From positions 1 through 14,128 of the forward strand of contig JAQSXN010000024.1 in assembly GCA_029256665.1 (NCBI GenBank): a DNA stretch of 14,128 nt, given 5' to 3'. The translations under genes were made by a program, and so were the position numbers. Positions 966-11,983 of this stretch are shown in pieces. Each line of letters starts with the position of its first letter. Position 1 is the stretch's first letter. A model generated the notes under the pieces. That model was not told the DNA's origin and made no database searches. It worked only from the letters and a program-made list of their open reading frames with translations. The stretch comes from Paenibacillus sp. GTDB lineage: Bacteria > Bacillota > Bacilli > Paenibacillales > Paenibacillaceae.

Positions 966-3293
966 ATGGACACGTTCAGACGCAAGTCTCCCGAGGACAT
1001 TTTGTTATCCATCGCGAAGCTGCACCGCGGGAAACTGACGGTCTTTATCGGCGCGGTAAGCGGATCGGGCAAAACTTACCATATGCTGCGGGAAGGCCAA
1101 GCGCTGAAGGCGCAAGGCGTGGACGTCGTGCTCTGCGCGGTTTCCACGATGGGGCGTCCGGGGACGAAGGAGCAGCTCGGATCGCTGGAACGGATACCAA
1201 GCATTCGCTGGCGCAAAGGCAGCGTCGACAAAAAGGATTTGAACCTGGAGGCGTTGATCGCCCGCAATCCCGAAGTCGTGCTCATTGACGGGCTTGCCCA
1301 TCGCAATCGCAAAGAGGCGGCCTATCCGACACGGCTCGAAGATATTCGTTATCTGCTCGGCAGGGGCATTAGCGTTATGACGACGGTCAACGTCTACGAG
1401 CTTGAGGATGTCCATCATGTCGCTCAGCGATTAACGGGCATCCATGCCGAAGAAACGCTGCCGGCCGACACGCTTGATTCTGCCGACGAAGTCAGGCTGA
1501 TCGACGTCACGCCCGAGACGATGCTGAAGCGGATCGAAGAAGGAAATCTGCGCGACTTCCAGTCATCGCCCATGTTCAGGAGAGGCAATCTCGGCGTGCT
1601 TCGGGAGCTCGCTCTTAGGCAGATGGCCGAAGACGTAGGCGGCTCGCTGGAGAAACACCGGGAGGAGCTGGGGTTGACGGGGCCTTCCGGCGCGTCGGAG
1701 CGCATATTGGTATCCGCCCAGTACCACTGGAACGGATCCATCTATATCCGTCGGGGCCAACAGATCGCGAAACGGCTGAACGGCGATCTGCTCGTCGTTT
1801 CTTTCGCGAAACCGAGCGCCGCGTTAAGCAAGGAAGAGAGCATGTTCAAGCGTTCGATCGAGAAGCTTGCGGACAAAATAGGAGCCGGCTTTGCGGAGTT
1901 GCCGTTCACGGGCAGGAGGCAAATGGCTGCCGCGCTGGTCAGGCATGCCCAAGCGAACGGCGTCACCCGGATCGTCCTAGGACACTCCAAACACGTTCCT
2001 TGGAAGGAGTGGCTGCAAGGCTCCATCGCGGGCGGTTTACTTAAACGGATACGAAACGTCGACGTTTTTTTTGTAGCGGACAGAGCCGATCATGACGGCG
2101 AACGCATCCTGCCCGCGAAGTCGGATCGCGGAAGCGACGCCGCGTCGGCCTACAGAAGATTGAACGAACAAGAAGTGGAACGAGAGATTCATCGTTTGCG
2201 ACGCGGAACCTTCAAGGTCTATATCGGGGCGGCGCCTGGCGTCGGCAAAACCTATACGATGTTAAGAGAAGGTGGCGAGCTGCTGCGCAAGGGAATTCAT
2301 ATCATAATCGGCTTGCTGGAAACGCACGGGCGGGAAGAGACGATCGCCCAGATCGGCAATCTGCCGCGTATCCCCGAAGCCATCATCGATTATCGCGGCA
2401 CAAAGTTGAAAGAAATGGACGTGCAAGCTATATTGGCTCGCAATCCCGAGGTGGTGCTCGTCGACGAACTCGCTCATACCAACGTTCCGGGCAGCAGGAA
2501 CAAGAAGAGGTACGAGGACGTCCTGGAGCTGCTGGAAGCTGGCATCTCGGTTATTTCGACGATGAACGTCCAGCATCTGGAGAGCTTGAACGACGCTGTA
2601 GAGCAAATCACCGGCGTCCGGGTCCGGGAGACGGTTCCCGACCGCATCCTGCAAGTGGCCGACGAAGTCGAGCTGATCGACGTCACGCCGGATCGGTTGC
2701 GGCAGCGGATGCGCGAAGGGCGCATCTATGCCGCGGGCAAGATCGACCAGGCGCTTGGCAACTTCTTCACCACCGGCAATCTGATCGCCCTGCGCGAGCT
2801 TGCCCTCAGAGAAATCGCGGACGATGTGGACGAACGCCTCGAAGCATGGAATCGAAAGGAATATTTGCGCGGGCCTTGGAGAAGCCGGGAAAACATCTTC
2901 GTCGCGGTAACGATGCGTCCGAGCGCGGAAAGGCTGATCCGGAGGGGGTTCCGCATCGCGCATCGGCTCAAGGCGGAATGGCATGTCGTCTACGTTCACG
3001 CCGAGTCCGGGCTCAAGGAAGCCGAAGAAAAACGGTTGGCGGTCATAAGGGAAATGACGGAACGGCTGGGTGGCAGATTCGAATTGGCGTTCTCGAAATC
3101 CGTGCGCGACGTGGCGCGAATGCTGCTCCAGCAAGCCTTCGACCGAAAGAGCACGCAAATGATCGTCGGTCAGACGACCAGGCCATGGTGGCATTACGCG
3201 CCGCGCAGGTCGATCGTCAAGGATATTTTGAGCAAGGGACGCCATATGGACGTGCTTGTCGTTGCCGATTACGAAAAAGAATCAAAGCCGTGA
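966..3293 (+). CDS. kdpD: Stand-alone KdpD sensor protein with two tandem KdpD-USP modules, no kinase domain
   Basis: This 775-residue soluble protein corresponds to the N-terminal cytoplasmic input region of the potassium sensor KdpD, present twice. Module A (about residues 8-373) and module B (about 400-770) each have a P-loop KdpD domain followed by a universal-stress-protein (USP) domain. Module B has textbook motifs: GAAPGVGKT (421-429), ETHGR (452-456), VVLVDELAHTN (496-506), STMNVQHLES and NFFTTGNLIALRELALRE. Module A keeps a P-loop (GAVSGSGKT, 29-37) and RGNLGVLRELALR, but has DGLAH in place of DELAH (G109 for E501) and STMGR in place of ETHGR, and lacks about five residues before RGNL. 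In the family this region senses or modulates the potassium signal. Histidine kinase and membrane parts are absent; they are in the next gene. The ATG at 966 follows AGGGGAGTGAGG. Split KdpD proteins are known in some bacilli and cyanobacteria; I do not know of a described doubled version. Confidence 0.9.
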   Translation: MDTFRRKSPEDILLSIAKLHRGKLTVFIGAVSGSGKTYHMLREGQALKAQGVDVVLCAVSTMGRPGTKEQLGSLERIPSIRWRKGSVDKKDLNLEALIARNPEVVLIDGLAHRNRKEAAYPTRLEDIRYLLGRGISVMTTVNVYELEDVHHVAQRLTGIHAEETLPADTLDSADEVRLIDVTPETMLKRIEEGNLRDFQSSPMFRRGNLGVLRELALRQMAEDVGGSLEKHREELGLTGPSGASERILVSAQYHWNGSIYIRRGQQIAKRLNGDLLVVSFAKPSAALSKEESMFKRSIEKLADKIGAGFAELPFTGRRQMAAALVRHAQANGVTRIVLGHSKHVPWKEWLQGSIAGGLLKRIRNVDVFFVADRADHDGERILPAKSDRGSDAASAYRRLNEQEVEREIHRLRRGTFKVYIGAAPGVGKTYTMLREGGELLRKGIHIIIGLLETHGREETIAQIGNLPRIPEAIIDYRGTKLKEMDVQAILARNPEVVLVDELAHTNVPGSRNKKRYEDVLELLEAGISVISTMNVQHLESLNDAVEQITGVRVRETVPDRILQVADEVELIDVTPDRLRQRMREGRIYAAGKIDQALGNFFTTGNLIALRELALREIADDVDERLEAWNRKEYLRGPWRSRENIFVAVTMRPSAERLIRRGFRIAHRLKAEWHVVYVHAESGLKEAEEKRLAVIREMTERLGGRFELAFSKSVRDVARMLLQQAFDRKSTQMIVGQTTRPWWHYAPRRSIVKDILSKGRHMDVLVVADYEKESKP

Positions 3294-3316: not shown

Positions 3317-3346
3317 TTGCCATAACTTGCCTCTCCTGTGTATGAT
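3317..3346 (+). promoter_or_regulatory. Sigma-A-like promoter before the KdpD kinase gene
   Basis: TTGCCA (3317-3322) and TATGAT (3341-3346) are separated by 18 bp, a good fit to a vegetative sigma-A promoter. It lies in the gap after the sensor-domain gene and would start transcription near 3353, just upstream of the preferred kinase start at 3383. It would let the kinase and KdpE be made at a basal level without the pump. Predicted from sequence only. Confidence 0.5.
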
Positions 3347-3369
3347 GGTGTTTATATAAGAAAACGGAT

Positions 3370-3375
3370 GAGGGA
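3370..3375 (+). promoter_or_regulatory. Ribosome binding site that sets the KdpD kinase start at 3383
   Basis: GAGGGA lies 7 nt before the ATG at 3383. No comparable site precedes the in-frame GTG at 3338 or the ATG at 3368, and the GTG overlaps the predicted promoter, so 3383 is the better start. Confidence 0.65.
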
Positions 3376-3382
3376 TGGAACG

Positions 3383-4909
3383 ATGAAGCAGCGGGCTTAC
3401 TTTGGCGCAACAATCGCGATCTCGGCCATGACGTACGTCTTATTGCAGTGGTTGCCTGCGTTCGATCTGGTCAACGTCGCCTTGCTCTATTTGTTGCCGG
3501 CATTGCTGAGCGCCGCATACGGCGGCAAGGGACCTTCCTTGTACGCGGCGACGCTGGGCTTGCTGGCGTTCGATTTCTTTTTTGTCCCTCCGTTTTTCAG
3601 CTTTGCGGTTTCCGACCTTCGGTACGTATTCACTTTCGTCGTGTATTACATCGTAGCCGTGATGACGGCAAGCCTGGCTGCCCGTTTGAAGCAGCAGTTG
3701 CTCGACTCCAAGAGGAAGGAAGCCTATACGGCATCGTTATTTGCAGTCAGCAAGGAAATGAGCTCTTATTCGGACATCCAATCCTTGCTTCGAAACGTGT
3801 CGGAGCATGTCTCCCTTAACGTTGACACGCCGGCGGTTATCTACCTGCCGGATGCCCAAGACGAATTGACGCTTGCGATATCCGCCGCTTCTCCGGCGGA
3901 GTGGGGAGGCGGAGACTCGGAGCTTGCGATCGCGGACTGGGTTTATCGTCATGGCCGCACCGCGGGCAAAGGAACGCCAACGTTAAACGGCTCGCCGGGA
4001 TTGTATTTGCCTCTGCGCACGGAGGATCGCGTGCACGGCGTGCTTGGCGTCAAGCTCGGGGACGTCGTGCTGTCCAAGGACCGACGATCGTTCCTGGAGG
4101 CGCTCGCGGGGTTAGCCGCGATCGCGATCGCCAGGGTAAAGTTAGGCGAAGAGGCGAAGATCGCCCAGCTGACGGCGGATTCGGAACGGCTTCGAACGGC
4201 GATTCTCGACTCCGTGTCGCATGAGCTGAGAACGCCGCTTGCGACGATGATCGGTTCGGCTACGGCAATGATCGAGAACGACGGATTGTTTACGCCGCAA
4301 GACCGGATGGAACTGCTTGGCGCCATTCGGGAAGGCGCGCTGCGCATGAACCGCCTTGTCTCCAATCTGCTCGGGATGGTTCAGTTGGAGAGCGGAATGC
4401 TTAGGCTTCGGCAAGACTGGTGCGACGTCGAGGATATGATCAGCGTTGTGCTGAAGCAGGTAAGGGATTTCCAGCAGCGGCGCGAGATGATTGTTCGGCT
4501 GCCGGAGCAAAATTTGCTTATTCCGGGAGACGAGGTGCTGCTGGAACAGGTGCTGACGAACGTCGTCAGCAACGCGATCAAATATTCGCCGGACGGCTCG
4601 ACGATCGAGATCTCGGTAGCCCAAAACAACGATTACGCGACGATAACCGTAGCGGATGAAGGGATCGGGATCGACGCGGCGGTTAGCGAGCGGGTATTCG
4701 ACAAATTTTTCCGCTCTGCGCGAACACAGCATTTGCCCGGGACCGGACTAGGATTAGCCATATGCAAAGGGATCGTGGAGCTGCACGGAGGCTCGATATC
4801 CGCCGCGCCTAACGGAACGCGAGGAACGATCGTATCGATCGCGCTGCCCGTAACCCGGCAAGAACCCGCGCCGCGAAGTCATGAAGAGAGGAGCGCCGAA
4901 CAACGATGA
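3383..4909 (+). CDS. kdpD: KdpD C-terminal half: membrane sensor histidine kinase
   Basis: This 508-residue protein is the membrane and catalytic half of KdpD as a separate gene. Residues about 4-100 form the DUF4118 four-helix membrane unit, with the family pattern NVALLYLLPALLSA and LAFDFFFVPPFFSFAVSD. A weakly conserved GAF-like region (about 115-255) follows. The kinase core then has the H box SVSHELRTPLA with His280 as the phosphorylated residue, the N box TNVVSNAIKYSP, the G1 box ADEGIGI, an F box (FDKFFR) and the G2 box GTGLGLAI. The known role is to phosphorylate KdpE under potassium limitation or osmotic stress. It presumably needs the separate sensor-domain protein encoded upstream as its input partner. 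The start at 3383 is chosen over upstream in-frame codons because of its ribosome binding site. The stop overlaps the kdpE start by 4 bp (ATGA), implying translational coupling. Confidence 0.94.
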   Translation: MKQRAYFGATIAISAMTYVLLQWLPAFDLVNVALLYLLPALLSAAYGGKGPSLYAATLGLLAFDFFFVPPFFSFAVSDLRYVFTFVVYYIVAVMTASLAARLKQQLLDSKRKEAYTASLFAVSKEMSSYSDIQSLLRNVSEHVSLNVDTPAVIYLPDAQDELTLAISAASPAEWGGGDSELAIADWVYRHGRTAGKGTPTLNGSPGLYLPLRTEDRVHGVLGVKLGDVVLSKDRRSFLEALAGLAAIAIARVKLGEEAKIAQLTADSERLRTAILDSVSHELRTPLATMIGSATAMIENDGLFTPQDRMELLGAIREGALRMNRLVSNLLGMVQLESGMLRLRQDWCDVEDMISVVLKQVRDFQQRREMIVRLPEQNLLIPGDEVLLEQVLTNVVSNAIKYSPDGSTIEISVAQNNDYATITVADEGIGIDAAVSERVFDKFFRSARTQHLPGTGLGLAICKGIVELHGGSISAAPNGTRGTIVSIALPVTRQEPAPRSHEERSAEQR

Positions 4910-6729: not shown

Positions 6730-6765
6730 ATGAATGATAACGTACACATCTAAGGGGCGTTTCCA

Positions 6766-9162
6766 ATGAATAACGTTACAGCGACTATGGAGCATGCCAA
6801 CGCTTGGTATGCCAAAGCGGAGAGCAAAGCCGGCCGTTACTTGGCGCTGCTCCAACAAGAAGTCGAACGCAAGTCATATATTGCCGCGCTAAACGCGGAT
6901 TTCACGATCTGGAAAAAGGGGCACATCCGGTCGCAGCGATGGCAATCCGCCATGTCGGCGGCAAGCCGCAAACCCGATTCGCGGGATTACGGCAAGTTTC
7001 TCCGCTGGCAGCGGCTAACGGGCAATTTGGACGACTACCTGGAGCGCAGCGTCACCTATATGTACATGCGCGATCTGGGCAAGGACCCTTCTGAGCCGGG
7101 CACGGGAGCCAGAATCGCAAGTCTGGTCCAGTTCATCAAACAGAACCTGATCCCGAAGCCGGATTCCGGCGCGGAGAACAGCGGCGAGCCCGATTACATG
7201 AGCCTTTCCGGTCTCTATAGATGGGCGCAGAAGGAAGGCGTCGAAACCGCGATGATCTGGGCGATCCAGAAGCTGAGAAACGTAGCGGCGAATATTCCGG
7301 ACGAAATGAATGCGGAGCATGCGGTTCGCAAGCTGATCAAAATCATGATCGGCGTCGTCCTGCACGTCATGGACGACATGGACGAAACCGTCCCGAGCAC
7401 GGAACGATCACGCCGGTTGGACGAGGGGATTCGGTTAGGATATTCCTATGGCCTTACGTATCCGTTCATCGACGACCTGCTCGATTCAAGCGTATTGGAG
7501 GATGCCGAGAAAGCCCAATACGCGCGCATGATCCGTCATACGCTATTGCATGGCTCCGTTCCCGACGTGTTGGATTGGAACGGCAAGAGCGCAGCGCTTA
7601 TCAGGTACGTGCATGGCGAACTGCGCGAAGCGTTCGAATGGATCAGGACGCATCAAAGCGCGGAAACATTGCCCGTTTTCTACGAACAATCCTATGTGTT
7701 CTTCGAATCGCAGGATATCGACCGCGGCAAGTCGCTTGCCGATCCGTCCTATACGAACGAAGAGCTGCTTCTGCCCATTATTATCAAATCCGCTTCATCC
7801 AGATTAATCGTCCGATCCGTCATCGGCGCCGAAACGGACGAAGCGTTCGACGAAAGAACGTTCTACTACGGCATCTACAATCAGCTGGCGGACGACTTCG
7901 CGGATCTGTACGACGACATGAATGAAGGCGCGGTGACTCCCTATACGTATTACTGGCGCTATCATAACGAACGCCGAGACTTGCTGAACCCGTACGAGCT
8001 CTATTGGGCGGTCATCTCGCATTTGATCCATCGGGTGTACCGTTCGAACGAAACCGCGCGCAACGTTATTTTGGAAAGAGCGGTAGGGGGGCTCAAACGA
8101 TTCAAAGCCCGCGTAGGATCGGAAACGTACCGCGAATTTATGGACGTGTTCGCTTCGGAACCGACCTCGTTCAACCTCGCGATCGACCAGTTGATTCTCA
8201 AAGCCGAGAAAGTGGACTTCTTCGATAAGCTGCTTAGAGAGCAAATGGTGACGGTGCTGCGCCGCGGCCGCGAACAGAAGGAATATTTTATCGCCACCGT
8301 TCAATCCGTGCGGGAGCAGATTAATGCGTTGCTCCCGTTCCCCAGCCAAGGAGGAGACCCGCTGCTGGGCGAGTCGTTGACGGAAGCCGCCAATTACAGC
8401 TTGGAAGGCTCGGGGAAACGAATAAGGCCGATCGTGGCATGGGTAATGTGCGTCGAGGAGTACGGAATGAAGCCCGCTTCCATCGTGCCGCTGATCCGAT
8501 CGCTTGAATATATGCACACGGCTTCGCTGATCTTCGACGACTTGCCTACGCAAGACAATGCCTCCTCTCGCAGGGGACGGCCGACGCTGCACCGCGTGCA
8601 TGACAGCGCGACTGCCGAGCTGACGGGCTTGTTTATGATACAGAAGGCCATCGAGGAGCAGTCCTCGCTTACCGACTTCAACCCCAAGACCGTGCTTGAG
8701 CTCATCCATTATTCTTCGTCCAAGGCGGCGGACATGTGCCGGGGGCAAGAGATGGACCTGCGCACGAGAGGGCAGTTGCTGTCGATCGAACAGCTGAATA
8801 CGCTGTGTTATTACAAGACCGGCATCGCGTTCGAGGCATCGCTTATGATGCCGGCTATCTTGGCAGGGGCCGGCGCGAAGGAGATCGAGACGCTTAAGAC
8901 TTACGCCTATCATGCGGGTATCGCCTTCCAAATCAAGGATGATCTGCTTGACGCGGAAGGAAACGTCGCGGTACTCGGCAAACCTGCGGGTCAAGACGCG
9001 AGCAACAGCAGTTCGACCTTCGTTACCTTGTATGGGCGAGACGGCGCGGCCAAACAAATGTGGGAGCATTATTGCCTGGCTTCGGAAGCTTTAAGAGGTT
9101 TGCCGAGACAATCCGTATTTTTAACTCAATTGCTGAATTATTTGATCGCCAGACAGTCATGA
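6766..9162 (+). CDS. Two-domain isoprenoid enzyme: terpene-synthase-like N-terminal part fused to a polyprenyl diphosphate synthase
   Basis: The C-terminal part (about residues 520-798) of this 798-residue protein is a trans-prenyltransferase: SLEGSGKRIRP (545-555), first Asp-rich motif DDLPTQD (591-597) followed by RRGRPTLHRVH, GQEMDLRTRG, YYKTG, and second Asp-rich motif FQIKDDLLD (721-729). The DDLPxxD form is typical of short-chain (farnesyl/geranylgeranyl) synthases. Two conserved features differ: the usual GDALL reads GLFMI, and the lysine after the second motif (GKDxxxxKxTYP region) is Ser749. The N-terminal 500 residues carry FIDDLLD (234-240) and NQLADDFADLYDD (372-384), 140 residues apart, the normal spacing of paired Asp-rich motifs in class I isoprenoid synthases. 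The second motif and its VTPYTYYW follow-on recall the YtpB/DUF2600 large terpene synthases. I infer a terpene synthase or second prenyl-binding domain; the product is unknown. AAGGGGC at 6752-6758 precedes the ATG. Confidence 0.85.
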   Translation: MNNVTATMEHANAWYAKAESKAGRYLALLQQEVERKSYIAALNADFTIWKKGHIRSQRWQSAMSAASRKPDSRDYGKFLRWQRLTGNLDDYLERSVTYMYMRDLGKDPSEPGTGARIASLVQFIKQNLIPKPDSGAENSGEPDYMSLSGLYRWAQKEGVETAMIWAIQKLRNVAANIPDEMNAEHAVRKLIKIMIGVVLHVMDDMDETVPSTERSRRLDEGIRLGYSYGLTYPFIDDLLDSSVLEDAEKAQYARMIRHTLLHGSVPDVLDWNGKSAALIRYVHGELREAFEWIRTHQSAETLPVFYEQSYVFFESQDIDRGKSLADPSYTNEELLLPIIIKSASSRLIVRSVIGAETDEAFDERTFYYGIYNQLADDFADLYDDMNEGAVTPYTYYWRYHNERRDLLNPYELYWAVISHLIHRVYRSNETARNVILERAVGGLKRFKARVGSETYREFMDVFASEPTSFNLAIDQLILKAEKVDFFDKLLREQMVTVLRRGREQKEYFIATVQSVREQINALLPFPSQGGDPLLGESLTEAANYSLEGSGKRIRPIVAWVMCVEEYGMKPASIVPLIRSLEYMHTASLIFDDLPTQDNASSRRGRPTLHRVHDSATAELTGLFMIQKAIEEQSSLTDFNPKTVLELIHYSSSKAADMCRGQEMDLRTRGQLLSIEQLNTLCYYKTGIAFEASLMMPAILAGAGAKEIETLKTYAYHAGIAFQIKDDLLDAEGNVAVLGKPAGQDASNSSSTFVTLYGRDGAAKQMWEHYCLASEALRGLPRQSVFLTQLLNYLIARQS

Positions 9163-9189: not shown

Positions 9190-9195
9190 TTGAAT

Positions 9196-9717
9196 ATGAA
9201 AGCTTTTATATTGGATCGGGACGGAGTCATCAATAAGGGCGGCAATATTAACCGGAAGTCCGAGCTTGTCTTGCTGCCCGGCGTGACGGACGCCATCAAG
9301 CTGATGGGGGAACTGGGATTCGAGGTGTTCGTTGCGTCCAATCAAGGCGGCGTCGGATTGGGATACATGACCAAATCGGCTTTAAAGAGCATACACGGCT
9401 ACATGGTGACGCTAATTAGGGAAGCAGGCGGCGACATCCGAGACGCCAGATATTGCACGCATAAACCGCAAGCGCGCTGCGCCTGCCGGAAGCCGGAGGC
9501 AGGCATGCTGTTTGATCTAATAAACAAATACGGGATCGATCGCAGTCGAAGTTATATGGTTGGCGACAGGGATACGGATGTGATGGCTGGTGAACGGGCA
9601 GGGGTCCGTACCATACTGCTAGGCGAGTCGATTCCCGGCGGAATCCATCCCGATTTTCTGTTCAGCGATTTATTCGATGCCGTAACCTCGCTGCATGAGC
9701 AACATAAGTTATTGTAG
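9196..9717 (+). CDS. HAD-superfamily phosphatase of the HisB-N/GmhB type
   Basis: This 173-residue phosphatase has the full motif set of the HisB N-terminal/GmhB branch of the HAD superfamily. Asp7 and Asp9 are in DRDGVIN (Asp7 as nucleophile), Ser48 is in SNQGGVG, Lys99 in CRKPEAGM, and the magnesium-binding Asp124 and Asp128 in MVGDRDTDVMAG. A zinc-binding cluster is formed by Cys87, His89, Cys95 and Cys97 (CTHKPQARCAC). Named relatives act on heptose bisphosphate or histidinol phosphate, but there are no heptose or histidine genes here, so the substrate is open. It starts 33 bp after the prenyltransferase-fusion gene with no terminator between, so the two are probably one operon, and a prenyl or terpenyl phosphate is a reasonable but unproven substrate. 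The ATG at 9196 is chosen over a TTG two codons upstream. Confidence 0.88.
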   Translation: MKAFILDRDGVINKGGNINRKSELVLLPGVTDAIKLMGELGFEVFVASNQGGVGLGYMTKSALKSIHGYMVTLIREAGGDIRDARYCTHKPQARCACRKPEAGMLFDLINKYGIDRSRSYMVGDRDTDVMAGERAGVRTILLGESIPGGIHPDFLFSDLFDAVTSLHEQHKLL

Positions 9718-9758: not shown

Positions 9759-9798
9759 AACAAGAAAAGGCAGCCGATGATCGGCTGCCCTTCTTGTT
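9759..9798. terminator. Bidirectional terminator between the HAD gene and the SASP gene
   Basis: A perfect 9-bp GC-rich stem (GGCAGCCGA with TCGGCTGCC, loop TGA) is extended by a second 8-bp stem (AACAAGAA with TTCTTGTT) across a small internal loop. T-rich flanks on either strand allow it to end both the plus-strand isoprenoid unit and the minus-strand SASP gene, which converge here. Confidence 0.9.
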
Positions 9799-10094: not shown

Positions 10095-10486
10095 ATGCCT
10101 TATAAAAAATCTTTGATGTAAATACTGGAAATTTTATTTTCGATCGTCTAAAGCGAATAATGGCATGTTTTTTATGATTCGACCCGAACGTCGGCGGTTG
10201 TCAACGAGCGGTGCTTGTGATAAGCTACAATTAATTTTTACGAATGGAGCTGAAGCGAAGATGTAGGATTTCTTGACTGTTGGTAACGGAAGCAAGCTTG
10301 GCCGGATTGCTGGCATAGGTTTGTTAGGTTATGCACAGACAAGAAAGTTACCTCTTCGAATCAGACGTATTCGGCATACCCTTATTCCCGCGTTTCTGTT
10401 ATGCGGGATTTGCGTTGCATGGATTCGAGCTGCGAGAATGTAACTTTCTTGCGGCTTATTTTAATTTCTCCATGCGGAGGTGTTGC
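10095..10486 (+). promoter_or_regulatory. Long structured leader region of the ABC-F gene
   Basis: This stretch between the SASP promoter and the ABC-F start holds no convincing gene. A possible -10 TACAAT (10226-10231) lacks a well-spaced -35. A 10-codon frame (10244-10276) without a good ribosome site and an ATG-TAG start-stop (10261-10266) are possible leader peptides. The most notable structure is a perfect 12-bp inverted repeat (CAAGAAAGTTAC 10340-10351, GTAACTTTCTTG 10440-10451) enclosing a second pairing (10355-10362 with 10422-10429) and a TCCCGC/GCGGGA hairpin (10386-10408). CGAAT at 10357-10361 can alternatively pair with ATTCG at 10369-10373. The pattern resembles leaders of antibiotic-induced ABC-F genes; regulation is inferred. 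Confidence 0.5.
10467..10480 (+). promoter_or_regulatory. Ribosome binding site of the ABC-F gene, inside a small hairpin
   Basis: GGAGG (10476-10480) is the ribosome binding site for the ATG at 10487. It can pair with TCTCC at 10467-10471 across an ATGC loop, which would partly hide it. It fixes the start at 10487 (or the adjacent ATG at 10490) rather than the in-frame ATG at 10331, which has no good site. Confidence 0.6.
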
Positions 10487-11983
10487 ATGATGGCATTAAT
10501 TCAAGTGTCGAACTTATCGTTCGCCTACGACGGCAGTTACGATCTCATCTTCGACAATACGAGCTTTGGGCTCGATACCGATTGGAAATTGGGCTTTACC
10601 GGAAGGAACGGCCGGGGCAAAACGACCTTCCTGCAGCTTCTGCTTGGCAAGCACGAATACGGAGGAACGATTACGACTCCGGTCGACTTTGATTATTTTC
10701 CGTTTCTCGTCGAAGACAAAAGCAGGATGGCCATCGAAATCGTGGAGGATATCGTGCCTGATTACGAGCACTGGAAGCTGTCCAAGGAACTTAACTTGCT
10801 GCAGGTCGGCGAAGAAACGTTGTACCGGGCATTCGATACGCTATCCAATGGCGAACAAACGAAGCTGCTGCTGGCCGCGTTGTTCTTGAAGGATAATAAT
10901 TTTCTCCTTATCGACGAACCGACGAATCATCTCGATATGGAGGCGAGGGCGGTCGTCAGCGATTATTTGAGAGGGAAAAAAGGGTACATCCTCGTGTCGC
11001 ATGATCGTTCGTTCCTCGACAACTGCGTCGATCACATCTTATCCATCAACAAAACCGACATCACGATCCAGAAGGGCAGCTTCTCCGATTGGCTCGAGAA
11101 CAAGCAGCGGCAGGACGAGTACGAGCTGGCCGAGAACGACAAGCTCAAGAAGGATATCAAGCGGTTAACTGACGCGGCAAGACGAACTAGCGATTGGTCC
11201 GACCAGGTCGAGAAATCGAAAAACGGAACACGCAACTCGGGCTCCAAGATCGATAAAGGTTACGTCGGGCATAAAGCGGCCAAAATGATGCAGCGTTCCA
11301 AGTCGATCGAACAGCGGCAGCAGAGCGCCGTCTCGGACAAATCGAAGCTGCTCAAAAACATCGAACACGCCGAAAGTCTTAAGGTTTCGCAGCTGCGTTA
11401 TCACAAAAGCAGGCTTGTCGAGCTGGATCGCGTCTCCGTCTATTACGGGGATAAAGCCGCATGCGAAGCGATCAGCTTCGACATCGATCAAGGCGAACGG
11501 ATCGCGCTGACGGGTCGCAACGGGTCGGGCAAGTCCAGCCTCCTGAAGCTGATCAGCGGCGAAGAGCTGTCCTACACAGGGACGATCCGGAAGGGGAGCG
11601 GGCTGCGCGTTTCCTACGTCTCCCAAGACACCTCCCATCTTATCGGCGACTTAAGCGACTACGCCCGTCGATACGGCATTGAAGAAAGTTTGTTCAAGTC
11701 CATTCTGAGAAAGCTCGACTTCGCCAGGGTTCAGTTCGAGAAGGACATTTCTTCCTATAGCGGCGGGCAAAAAAAGAAGGTGCTTATCGCCAGAAGCTTG
11801 TGCGAGCAAGCCCATCTGCATATCTGGGACGAACCGCTTAATTTTGTCGACGTCATCTCCCGGATGCAGATCGAGGAGCTTCTGCTGGACTACGAACCGA
11901 CGCTGCTCTTCGTGGAGCATGACCGGGAATTTGCTAGCCGAATCGCGACCAAGCACGTCCATCTGACGGTTGAGCGGGCGTAA
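10487..11983 (+). CDS. ABC-F ribosome-protection protein, Lsa type
   Basis: This 498-residue cytoplasmic protein has two ATP-binding cassettes and no membrane domain, the ABC-F layout, and matches the length and layout of Lsa-type proteins. Cassette 1 has Walker A GRNGRGKTT (39-47), signature LSNGEQTKLLL and Walker B LLIDEPTNHLD. The linker (about 203-305) is lysine- and glutamine-rich. Cassette 2 has Walker A GRNGSGKSS (343-351), signature YSGGQKKKVLIA and a shortened Walker B IWDEPLNFVD, as usual in this branch. In the family such proteins bind the ribosomal E site and release lincosamides, streptogramin A and pleuromutilins from the peptidyl-transferase centre. The start at 10487 follows GGAGG and begins MMALIQVSNLSFAYDG, like Lsa N termini; 52 further in-frame codons upstream belong to the leader. 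Resistance activity of this copy is not shown by sequence alone. Confidence 0.9.
   Translation: MMALIQVSNLSFAYDGSYDLIFDNTSFGLDTDWKLGFTGRNGRGKTTFLQLLLGKHEYGGTITTPVDFDYFPFLVEDKSRMAIEIVEDIVPDYEHWKLSKELNLLQVGEETLYRAFDTLSNGEQTKLLLAALFLKDNNFLLIDEPTNHLDMEARAVVSDYLRGKKGYILVSHDRSFLDNCVDHILSINKTDITIQKGSFSDWLENKQRQDEYELAENDKLKKDIKRLTDAARRTSDWSDQVEKSKNGTRNSGSKIDKGYVGHKAAKMMQRSKSIEQRQQSAVSDKSKLLKNIEHAESLKVSQLRYHKSRLVELDRVSVYYGDKAACEAISFDIDQGERIALTGRNGSGKSSLLKLISGEELSYTGTIRKGSGLRVSYVSQDTSHLIGDLSDYARRYGIEESLFKSILRKLDFARVQFEKDISSYSGGQKKKVLIARSLCEQAHLHIWDEPLNFVDVISRMQIEELLLDYEPTLLFVEHDREFASRIATKHVHLTVERA

Follow-up and report, generated by a model that had tools for sequence, protein, structure and literature searches.

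A gene in contig JAQSXN010000024.1 of Paenibacillus sp. raises the question of whether a single bacterial protein may both build a prenyl diphosphate and convert it to a terpene. The stretch analyzed, 14,128 bases long and referred to below as the window, carries at 6766..9162 (+) an open reading frame (ORF) of 798 residues plus stop with an ATG start, and a ribosome-binding-site-like AAGGGG (6752..6757, +) was found in the sequence 8 bases before the ATG. A preliminary description had interpreted the product as a chimera of a terpene-synthase-like domain and a prenyl diphosphate synthase, and this interpretation was supported. On sequence grounds, the protein appears to be a fusion of two enzymes, the N-terminal one apparently an autonomous domain that is also found by itself. 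We consider it probable that the chimera is a bifunctional bacterial terpene synthase, in which the C-terminal domain would build a prenyl diphosphate and the N-terminal domain would convert it to a terpene; from this we infer that both steps reside in one protein. Where the source records of its relatives carried a name, this was mostly “polyprenyl synthetase family protein” (best 120 of 1373 matches, from 7998 candidates scored), a label that conceals the N-terminal 500 residues.

Two domains with separate pairs of aspartate-rich motifs

The C-terminal domain (residues 505 to 798; 8278..9159, +) matched PF00348 with 169.5 bits against a cut-off of 27. With both Asp-rich motifs present, DDLPTQD at 591 to 597 (8536..8556) and DDLLD at 725 to 729 (8938..8952), both placed by alignment, it was identified as a trans-polyprenyl diphosphate synthase. 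Its best sequence matches in the PDB were bacterial farnesyl diphosphate (FPP) synthases. It fell short of the cut-off in each of the 16 NCBIfam models listed, reaching 202 of 275 bits for FPPsyn and 149 of 460 for CrtE.

The N-terminal domain (residues 1 to 500; 6766..8265, +), delimited by an AlphaFold2 model and fold matches, holds a pair of motifs of its own. The first, FIDDLLD at 234 to 240 (7465..7485, +), contains DDLLD, of the DDxxD form, and lies at the C-terminal end of predicted helix 231-240. The second, NQLADDFADLYDD at 372 to 384 (7879..7917, +), falls in predicted helices 359-379 and 381-387, and the alignment placed TPYTYY (391 to 396; 7936..7953, +) directly after it. The second motif fits two registers, N-x3-D-x3-D and D-x3-D-x3-D; in the first, NQLADDFAD corresponds to N-x3-[S/T]-x3-E, the register of the NSE/DTE metal motif of terpene synthases, with Asp replacing both S/T and E. 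The ORF coordinates of the preliminary description were correct, and its motifs were all confirmed, among them QLADDFAD at 373 to 380 and, downstream of it, VTPYTYYW at 390 to 397, as were its spacings of 140 residues from D236 to D376 and 134 from D591 to D725.

Predicted fold and sequence relationships of the N-terminal domain

The AlphaFold2 model of the N-terminal domain had a predicted local distance difference test score (pLDDT) of 86.2 and a predicted template modeling score of 0.88. As the preliminary description required, the predicted fold, judged by the model and the fold comparison, is all-alpha and of the class I isoprenoid synthase type, and the domain was assigned to this fold class. 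The span of the fold matches puts the class I core at approximately residues 94 to 495, with residues 1 to 93 forming extra helices. In the VIA fold list, terpene synthases occupied rows 1 to 30 and the first prenyl diphosphate synthase stood at row 31, with a Z score only 2.4 below the top; the Foldseek list placed prenyl diphosphate synthases first, with human squalene synthase at row 44. That some families, among them YtpB and the fungal cyclases, are missing from these lists was not taken as evidence against them.

At the sequence level, neither Pfam nor NCBIfam gave a match in the N-terminal part of the chimera, and a search of PDB chains with the N-domain profile returned no isoprenoid synthase at E values up to 10. 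The best local profile alignment of the two domains placed NQLADDFAD on FQIKDDLLD of the C-terminal domain with a probability of 0.6, which is not significant, and profile comparison with the prenyltransferase domain gave nothing significant. In the full-length model a predicted continuous helix, residues 486 to 522 (8221..8331, +), joins the two domains, with block pLDDT values of 71 to 86 for residues 481 to 520.

Conservation and selection

A scan of 84,980 species, each represented by a single genome, yielded 431 stretches with a relative, of which 80 were kept: 74 from Paenibacillus, 3 from Neobacillus, and 1 each from Fontibacillus, Brevibacillus, and another member of the Paenibacillaceae. 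In all 80 the frame continued into the prenyltransferase part with DDLPxQD. Together with the window protein these formed an alignment of 81, in which D236, D237, D240, N372, Q373, L374, A375, D376, D377, D380, and D384 were identical throughout, a result favored for N372 to D376 by selection of the loci with the peptides YGLTYPFI and GIYNQLAD. The same residues were, however, also invariant in 21/21 and 33/33 proteins from sets that were not chosen by these peptides and that partly overlap the 81. The N-domain motifs are thus conserved in homologues beyond what chance would give, as the preliminary description also required. The residues after the second motif were nearly as constant, with T391, T394, and Y395 in 81/81 and P392 in 80/81.

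In the C-terminal domain, D591, D592, and D597 were present in 81/81 proteins and D725, D726, and D729 in 80/80, since one locus (L089) stops at 646 residues, before the last motif. Strict word patterns missed the first motif in 9/80 loci and the last in 8/80; by alignment, the aspartates were present there. Ala586 (8521..8523, +), which precedes the first Asp of DDLPTQD by five residues, was found in 81/81 chimeras, with Tyr at this position in 7/7 IspA-like proteins compared.

Both halves were under purifying selection relative to the two relatives compared, L081 and L082. Against L081, the nonsynonymous and synonymous values (pN/pS) were 0.16/0.81 for residues 141 to 485, 0.13/0.73 for residues 505 to 798, and 0.25/0.63 for residues 1 to 140; synonymous sites were saturated, so that these values do not give an exact ratio. 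The helices formed by residues 1 to 93 (6766..7044), which lie outside the class I core of most fold matches, fall within the faster-evolving stretch 1 to 140.

Free-standing relatives of the N-terminal domain

In a Bacillota genome, a 399-residue open frame truncated where its contig stops matched the N-terminal domain at an E value of 1e-5 and was found complete as a protein of 416 residues (P0122). A search limited to proteins of up to about 700 residues placed it in a family of 2338 proteins; 2 of the best 120 carry the NCBI name “class 1 isoprenoid biosynthesis enzyme,” and most of the 120 are unnamed or hypothetical. Comparison of the N-terminal domain with these class 1 proteins by hhalign gave a probability of 93.7 and an E value of 1.9e-7 over 154 columns. 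Both Asp motifs were aligned, and homology of the two groups was accepted on this basis, with a further protein, P0356, as a bridge. The class 1 proteins, named as such in Proteiniborus and Alkaliphilus, carry the motifs D-[DN]-x-x-D and QLxDDxxDxxxD. They are single-domain proteins of 402 to 466 residues (best 120 of 2338, within the length range searched), whereas the chimera is fused and 798 residues long. Pfam gave scattered weak matches only on 28 members, a PDB sequence search with the class 1 profile returned no isoprenoid synthase, and no prenyltransferase gene was seen within the 15 and 18 kb around two class 1 loci examined. In the accessible parts of the literature, no product was found under the class 1 name.

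P0356 has 504 residues, no prenyltransferase part, and the motifs IDDLLD, LVDDFRDFPED, and TPFTYY; it was judged free-standing by its recorded length. Searched against 398 Bacillota genomes, it found eight chimeras (E values 6e-28 to 1e-35), two class 1 proteins (1.1e-9 and 3.5e-8), and no others. The search that found P0356 covered proteins of up to about 605 residues and yielded 118. Many of these shorter proteins, four of which were read, were named “partial” or held part of PF00348 and so resembled pieces of fusions. D236, D240, D376, D377, D380, and D384 are found again across the free-standing relatives; the class 1 proteins have Asn in place of D237, and N372 is not kept. Because D376, D380, and D384 recur in relatives and N372 does not, this triad is favored as the metal-binding one.

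A further N-domain relative with both motifs, a partial protein of 459 residues with 38% identity (P0308), came from a metagenome-assembled genome labeled Enterobacterales. It may place the family outside Bacillota or reflect a mislabeled bin.

Distribution

In a family-wide sample a match was found in 163/295 genomes, and in 159 of the 163 it was single. The full-length protein occurred in 24/60 relatives, including the window's own genome (rated 64% complete), and in 8/398 Bacillota genomes. The nearest relative with a name, from Paenibacillus sp. BS8-2, shared 81% identity with the first 500 residues (best 120 of 1373 matches). In a quick tree, the copy from Neobacillus mesonae was nested within one of the Paenibacillus groups with a support of 100, a placement that suggests horizontal transfer of the chimera between genera. 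Plasmid records gave 363 matches, none over 80% of the query, and the ten listed covered the prenyltransferase part only; viral contigs searched with P0356 gave no match.

Proposed function and alternatives

As a bifunctional terpene synthase, the protein would condense dimethylallyl diphosphate and isopentenyl diphosphate in its C-terminal domain to an all-trans prenyl diphosphate, most likely geranylgeranyl diphosphate (GGPP, C20) and possibly a longer one. The N-terminal domain, a putative class I terpene synthase with a sequence family to itself, would bind Mg2+ through D236/D240 and the triad D376-D380-D384 (or N372-D376-D380) and ionize the allylic diphosphate. The carbocation would then be cyclized or quenched to give a hydrocarbon or an alcohol. 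The fusion would put precursor supply and conversion, with any substrate transfer between the domains, into one gene, which fits the absence of conserved neighbor genes described below.

A catalytic role other than cyclization was also considered for the N-terminal domain, namely that of a second condensing enzyme acting on the C-domain product, whether head-to-head in the manner of squalene or phytoene synthase, as a further chain elongase, or by transferring the prenyl group to a different acceptor. The two DDxxD-like motifs of the domain are similar to the pair in prenyl diphosphate synthases, its second motif falls on that of the C-terminal domain in the best, nonsignificant local alignment, and the Foldseek ranking points in the same direction. 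The leading rows of the VIA list, despite the small Z gap, argue for a terpene synthase instead, as does the outcome of the profile comparison with the prenyltransferase domain, where nothing significant was found. In addition, the first N-domain motif has neither the DDxxxxD form nor the RRG that comes after it in the C-terminal domain, and we regard a condensing enzyme as unlikely. That the N-terminal domain makes no product and instead regulates the C-terminal domain or sets its chain length, as small subunits do in heteromeric prenyl diphosphate synthases, appears quite improbable. Direct fusion through a predicted continuous helix would suit such a partner, and the superfamily does include a small subunit that controls chain length, HexA, according to the accessible text of PMC7839719. 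The 11 residues invariant in 81/81 proteins would, however, be needless in a dead partner, and most of the N-domain aspartates are retained in the relatives whose records show no prenyltransferase part.

A true fungal-type chimeric terpene synthase gained by horizontal transfer would share the order of an N-terminal synthase and a C-terminal prenyltransferase, as described in the portion of PMC8307374 available. The failure of the N-domain profile to find an isoprenoid synthase among PDB chains speaks against such an origin, the sequence kin found for the domain are bacterial wherever an organism is recorded, and the best PDB matches of the C-terminal domain are bacterial as well. This origin is hardly credible.

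A wider proposal can be put forward tentatively, as possible rather than expected: that an assembly-line terpene synthase arose in Paenibacillus independently, by convergence with the fungal chimeras, that the N-terminal domain and the “class 1” proteins of Clostridia make up a new class, by sequence, among class I cyclases, and that about half of Paenibacillaceae species have a one-gene route from C5 units to a cyclic di- or sesterterpene not seen before. The accessible part of PMC7829367 describes the Paenibacillus terpene pathway as unknown, and the chimera is a direct candidate for it. A function would also be suggested for a protein family without a Pfam or NCBIfam model, and such compact enzymes are perhaps easier to express in bacteria.

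Genomic neighborhood

The window encodes, in order, kdpC, a tandem KdpD-like sensor, a histidine kinase, a response regulator, a ROK sugar kinase, and the chimera, followed by genes for a HAD phosphatase, a spore protein (opposite strand), an ABC-F protein, and an M20 peptidase. Neighbors were surveyed at 19 loci, comprising the window, 14 of 23 full-length relatives, and 4 of 7 other fusions. No conserved gene cluster was found; the chimera alone was common to all 19, and the next most shared cluster, ABC-type proteins, occurred at 7/19 loci in no fixed place. With no neighbor gene common to the 19 loci, no tailoring enzymes can be named. At the closest of the surveyed loci (L063) the order still runs from the ROK kinase through the chimera, the HAD phosphatase, and the spore protein to the ABC-type protein, with extra genes on both sides of the chimera.

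The HAD-IIIA phosphatase gene (9190..9717, +) starts 28 bases after the chimera and is possibly cotranscribed with it; in L063, ~4 kb separate its relative from the chimera. A 13-pair hairpin (9765-9793) stands between it and the convergent small acid-soluble spore protein gene, and in the whole scan hairpins were no commoner than in shuffled sequences. Upstream, 966..3293 (+) encodes a 775-residue protein with two tandem copies of the “KdpD-like non-kinase potassium sensor” (two NF038185 stretches), separate from the downstream histidine kinase (3338..4909; DUF4118-GAF-HisKA). This arrangement is common in relatives, with matches over ~700 residues or more in 10/21 genomes, including the window's own. 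The ABC-F gene (10331..11983, +) scored 744 bits against an Lsa cut-off of 750, and 477 against 380 for general ribosomal protection ABC-F; these scores place it near Lsa, a family of ribosomal protection proteins. Because the profile begins at residue 54, the gene probably starts about 50 codons into the ORF.

Comparison with known systems

The C-terminal domain has the family (PF00348), motifs, and fold of bacterial FPP and GGPP synthases in common, and differs from them in being fused and in having Ala for Tyr five residues before DDxxxxD.

For the N-terminal domain, the preliminary description had pointed to the YtpB/DUF2600 synthases, of which one, BalTS, has a class I-like structure according to the accessible parts of PMC7839719. 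The resemblance of the second motif held: in YtpB a D-x3-D-x3-D register followed by YY can be aligned to the chimera without a gap. Membership in DUF2600 (PF10776) was rejected, with no Pfam match at E values up to 1 and no profile-profile similarity (hhalign probability of 0.3). The YtpB motifs given in the same source, DYLDNLxD and DY(F,L,W)IDxxED, are replaced in the chimera by FIDDLLDS and ADDFADLYDD, the spacing of the second being conserved; the first motif thus differs, and the chimera is fused. A separate DUF2600/YtpB gene was present in 29/30 genomes, the exception being the window's incomplete genome.

The preliminary description had likewise seen the layout of the fungal chimeric terpene synthases (PTTS) and known of no well-described bacterial equivalent. 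The layout was confirmed by the models and fold matches, as an N-terminal class I synthase fold followed by a C-terminal prenyltransferase. The second statement agrees with the open-access literature, in which, mostly at the level of titles and abstracts, no bacterial chimeric terpene synthase was recognized, though an earlier report elsewhere is possible. The accessible text of a genome-mining study that included one Paenibacillus (PMC12654598) contains neither “chimer” nor “bifunctional.”

The PTTS, such as fusicoccadiene synthase (PaFS), share the domain order with the chimera and are its nearest functional parallel. In the available portion of PMC8307374 they are described as unique to fungi, found in Dikarya, and as yielding diverse di- and sesterterpenes; the chimera, from Paenibacillus and other Bacillota, falls outside that group. 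It also has a different second motif, and its N-domain profile found no isoprenoid synthase in the PDB, a comparison that does not extend directly to PTTS sequences. PaFS has a flexible 70-residue linker around its prenyltransferase core (PMC8190136, accessible part), whereas a continuous helix is predicted at the joint of the chimera; because this helix crosses the joint, the two domains may be held more rigidly than in PaFS. A widespread bacterial counterpart with another synthase family would mean that this architecture arose twice. In working principle the chimera would match the fungal chimeric synthases, while the lineage and the synthase family differ.
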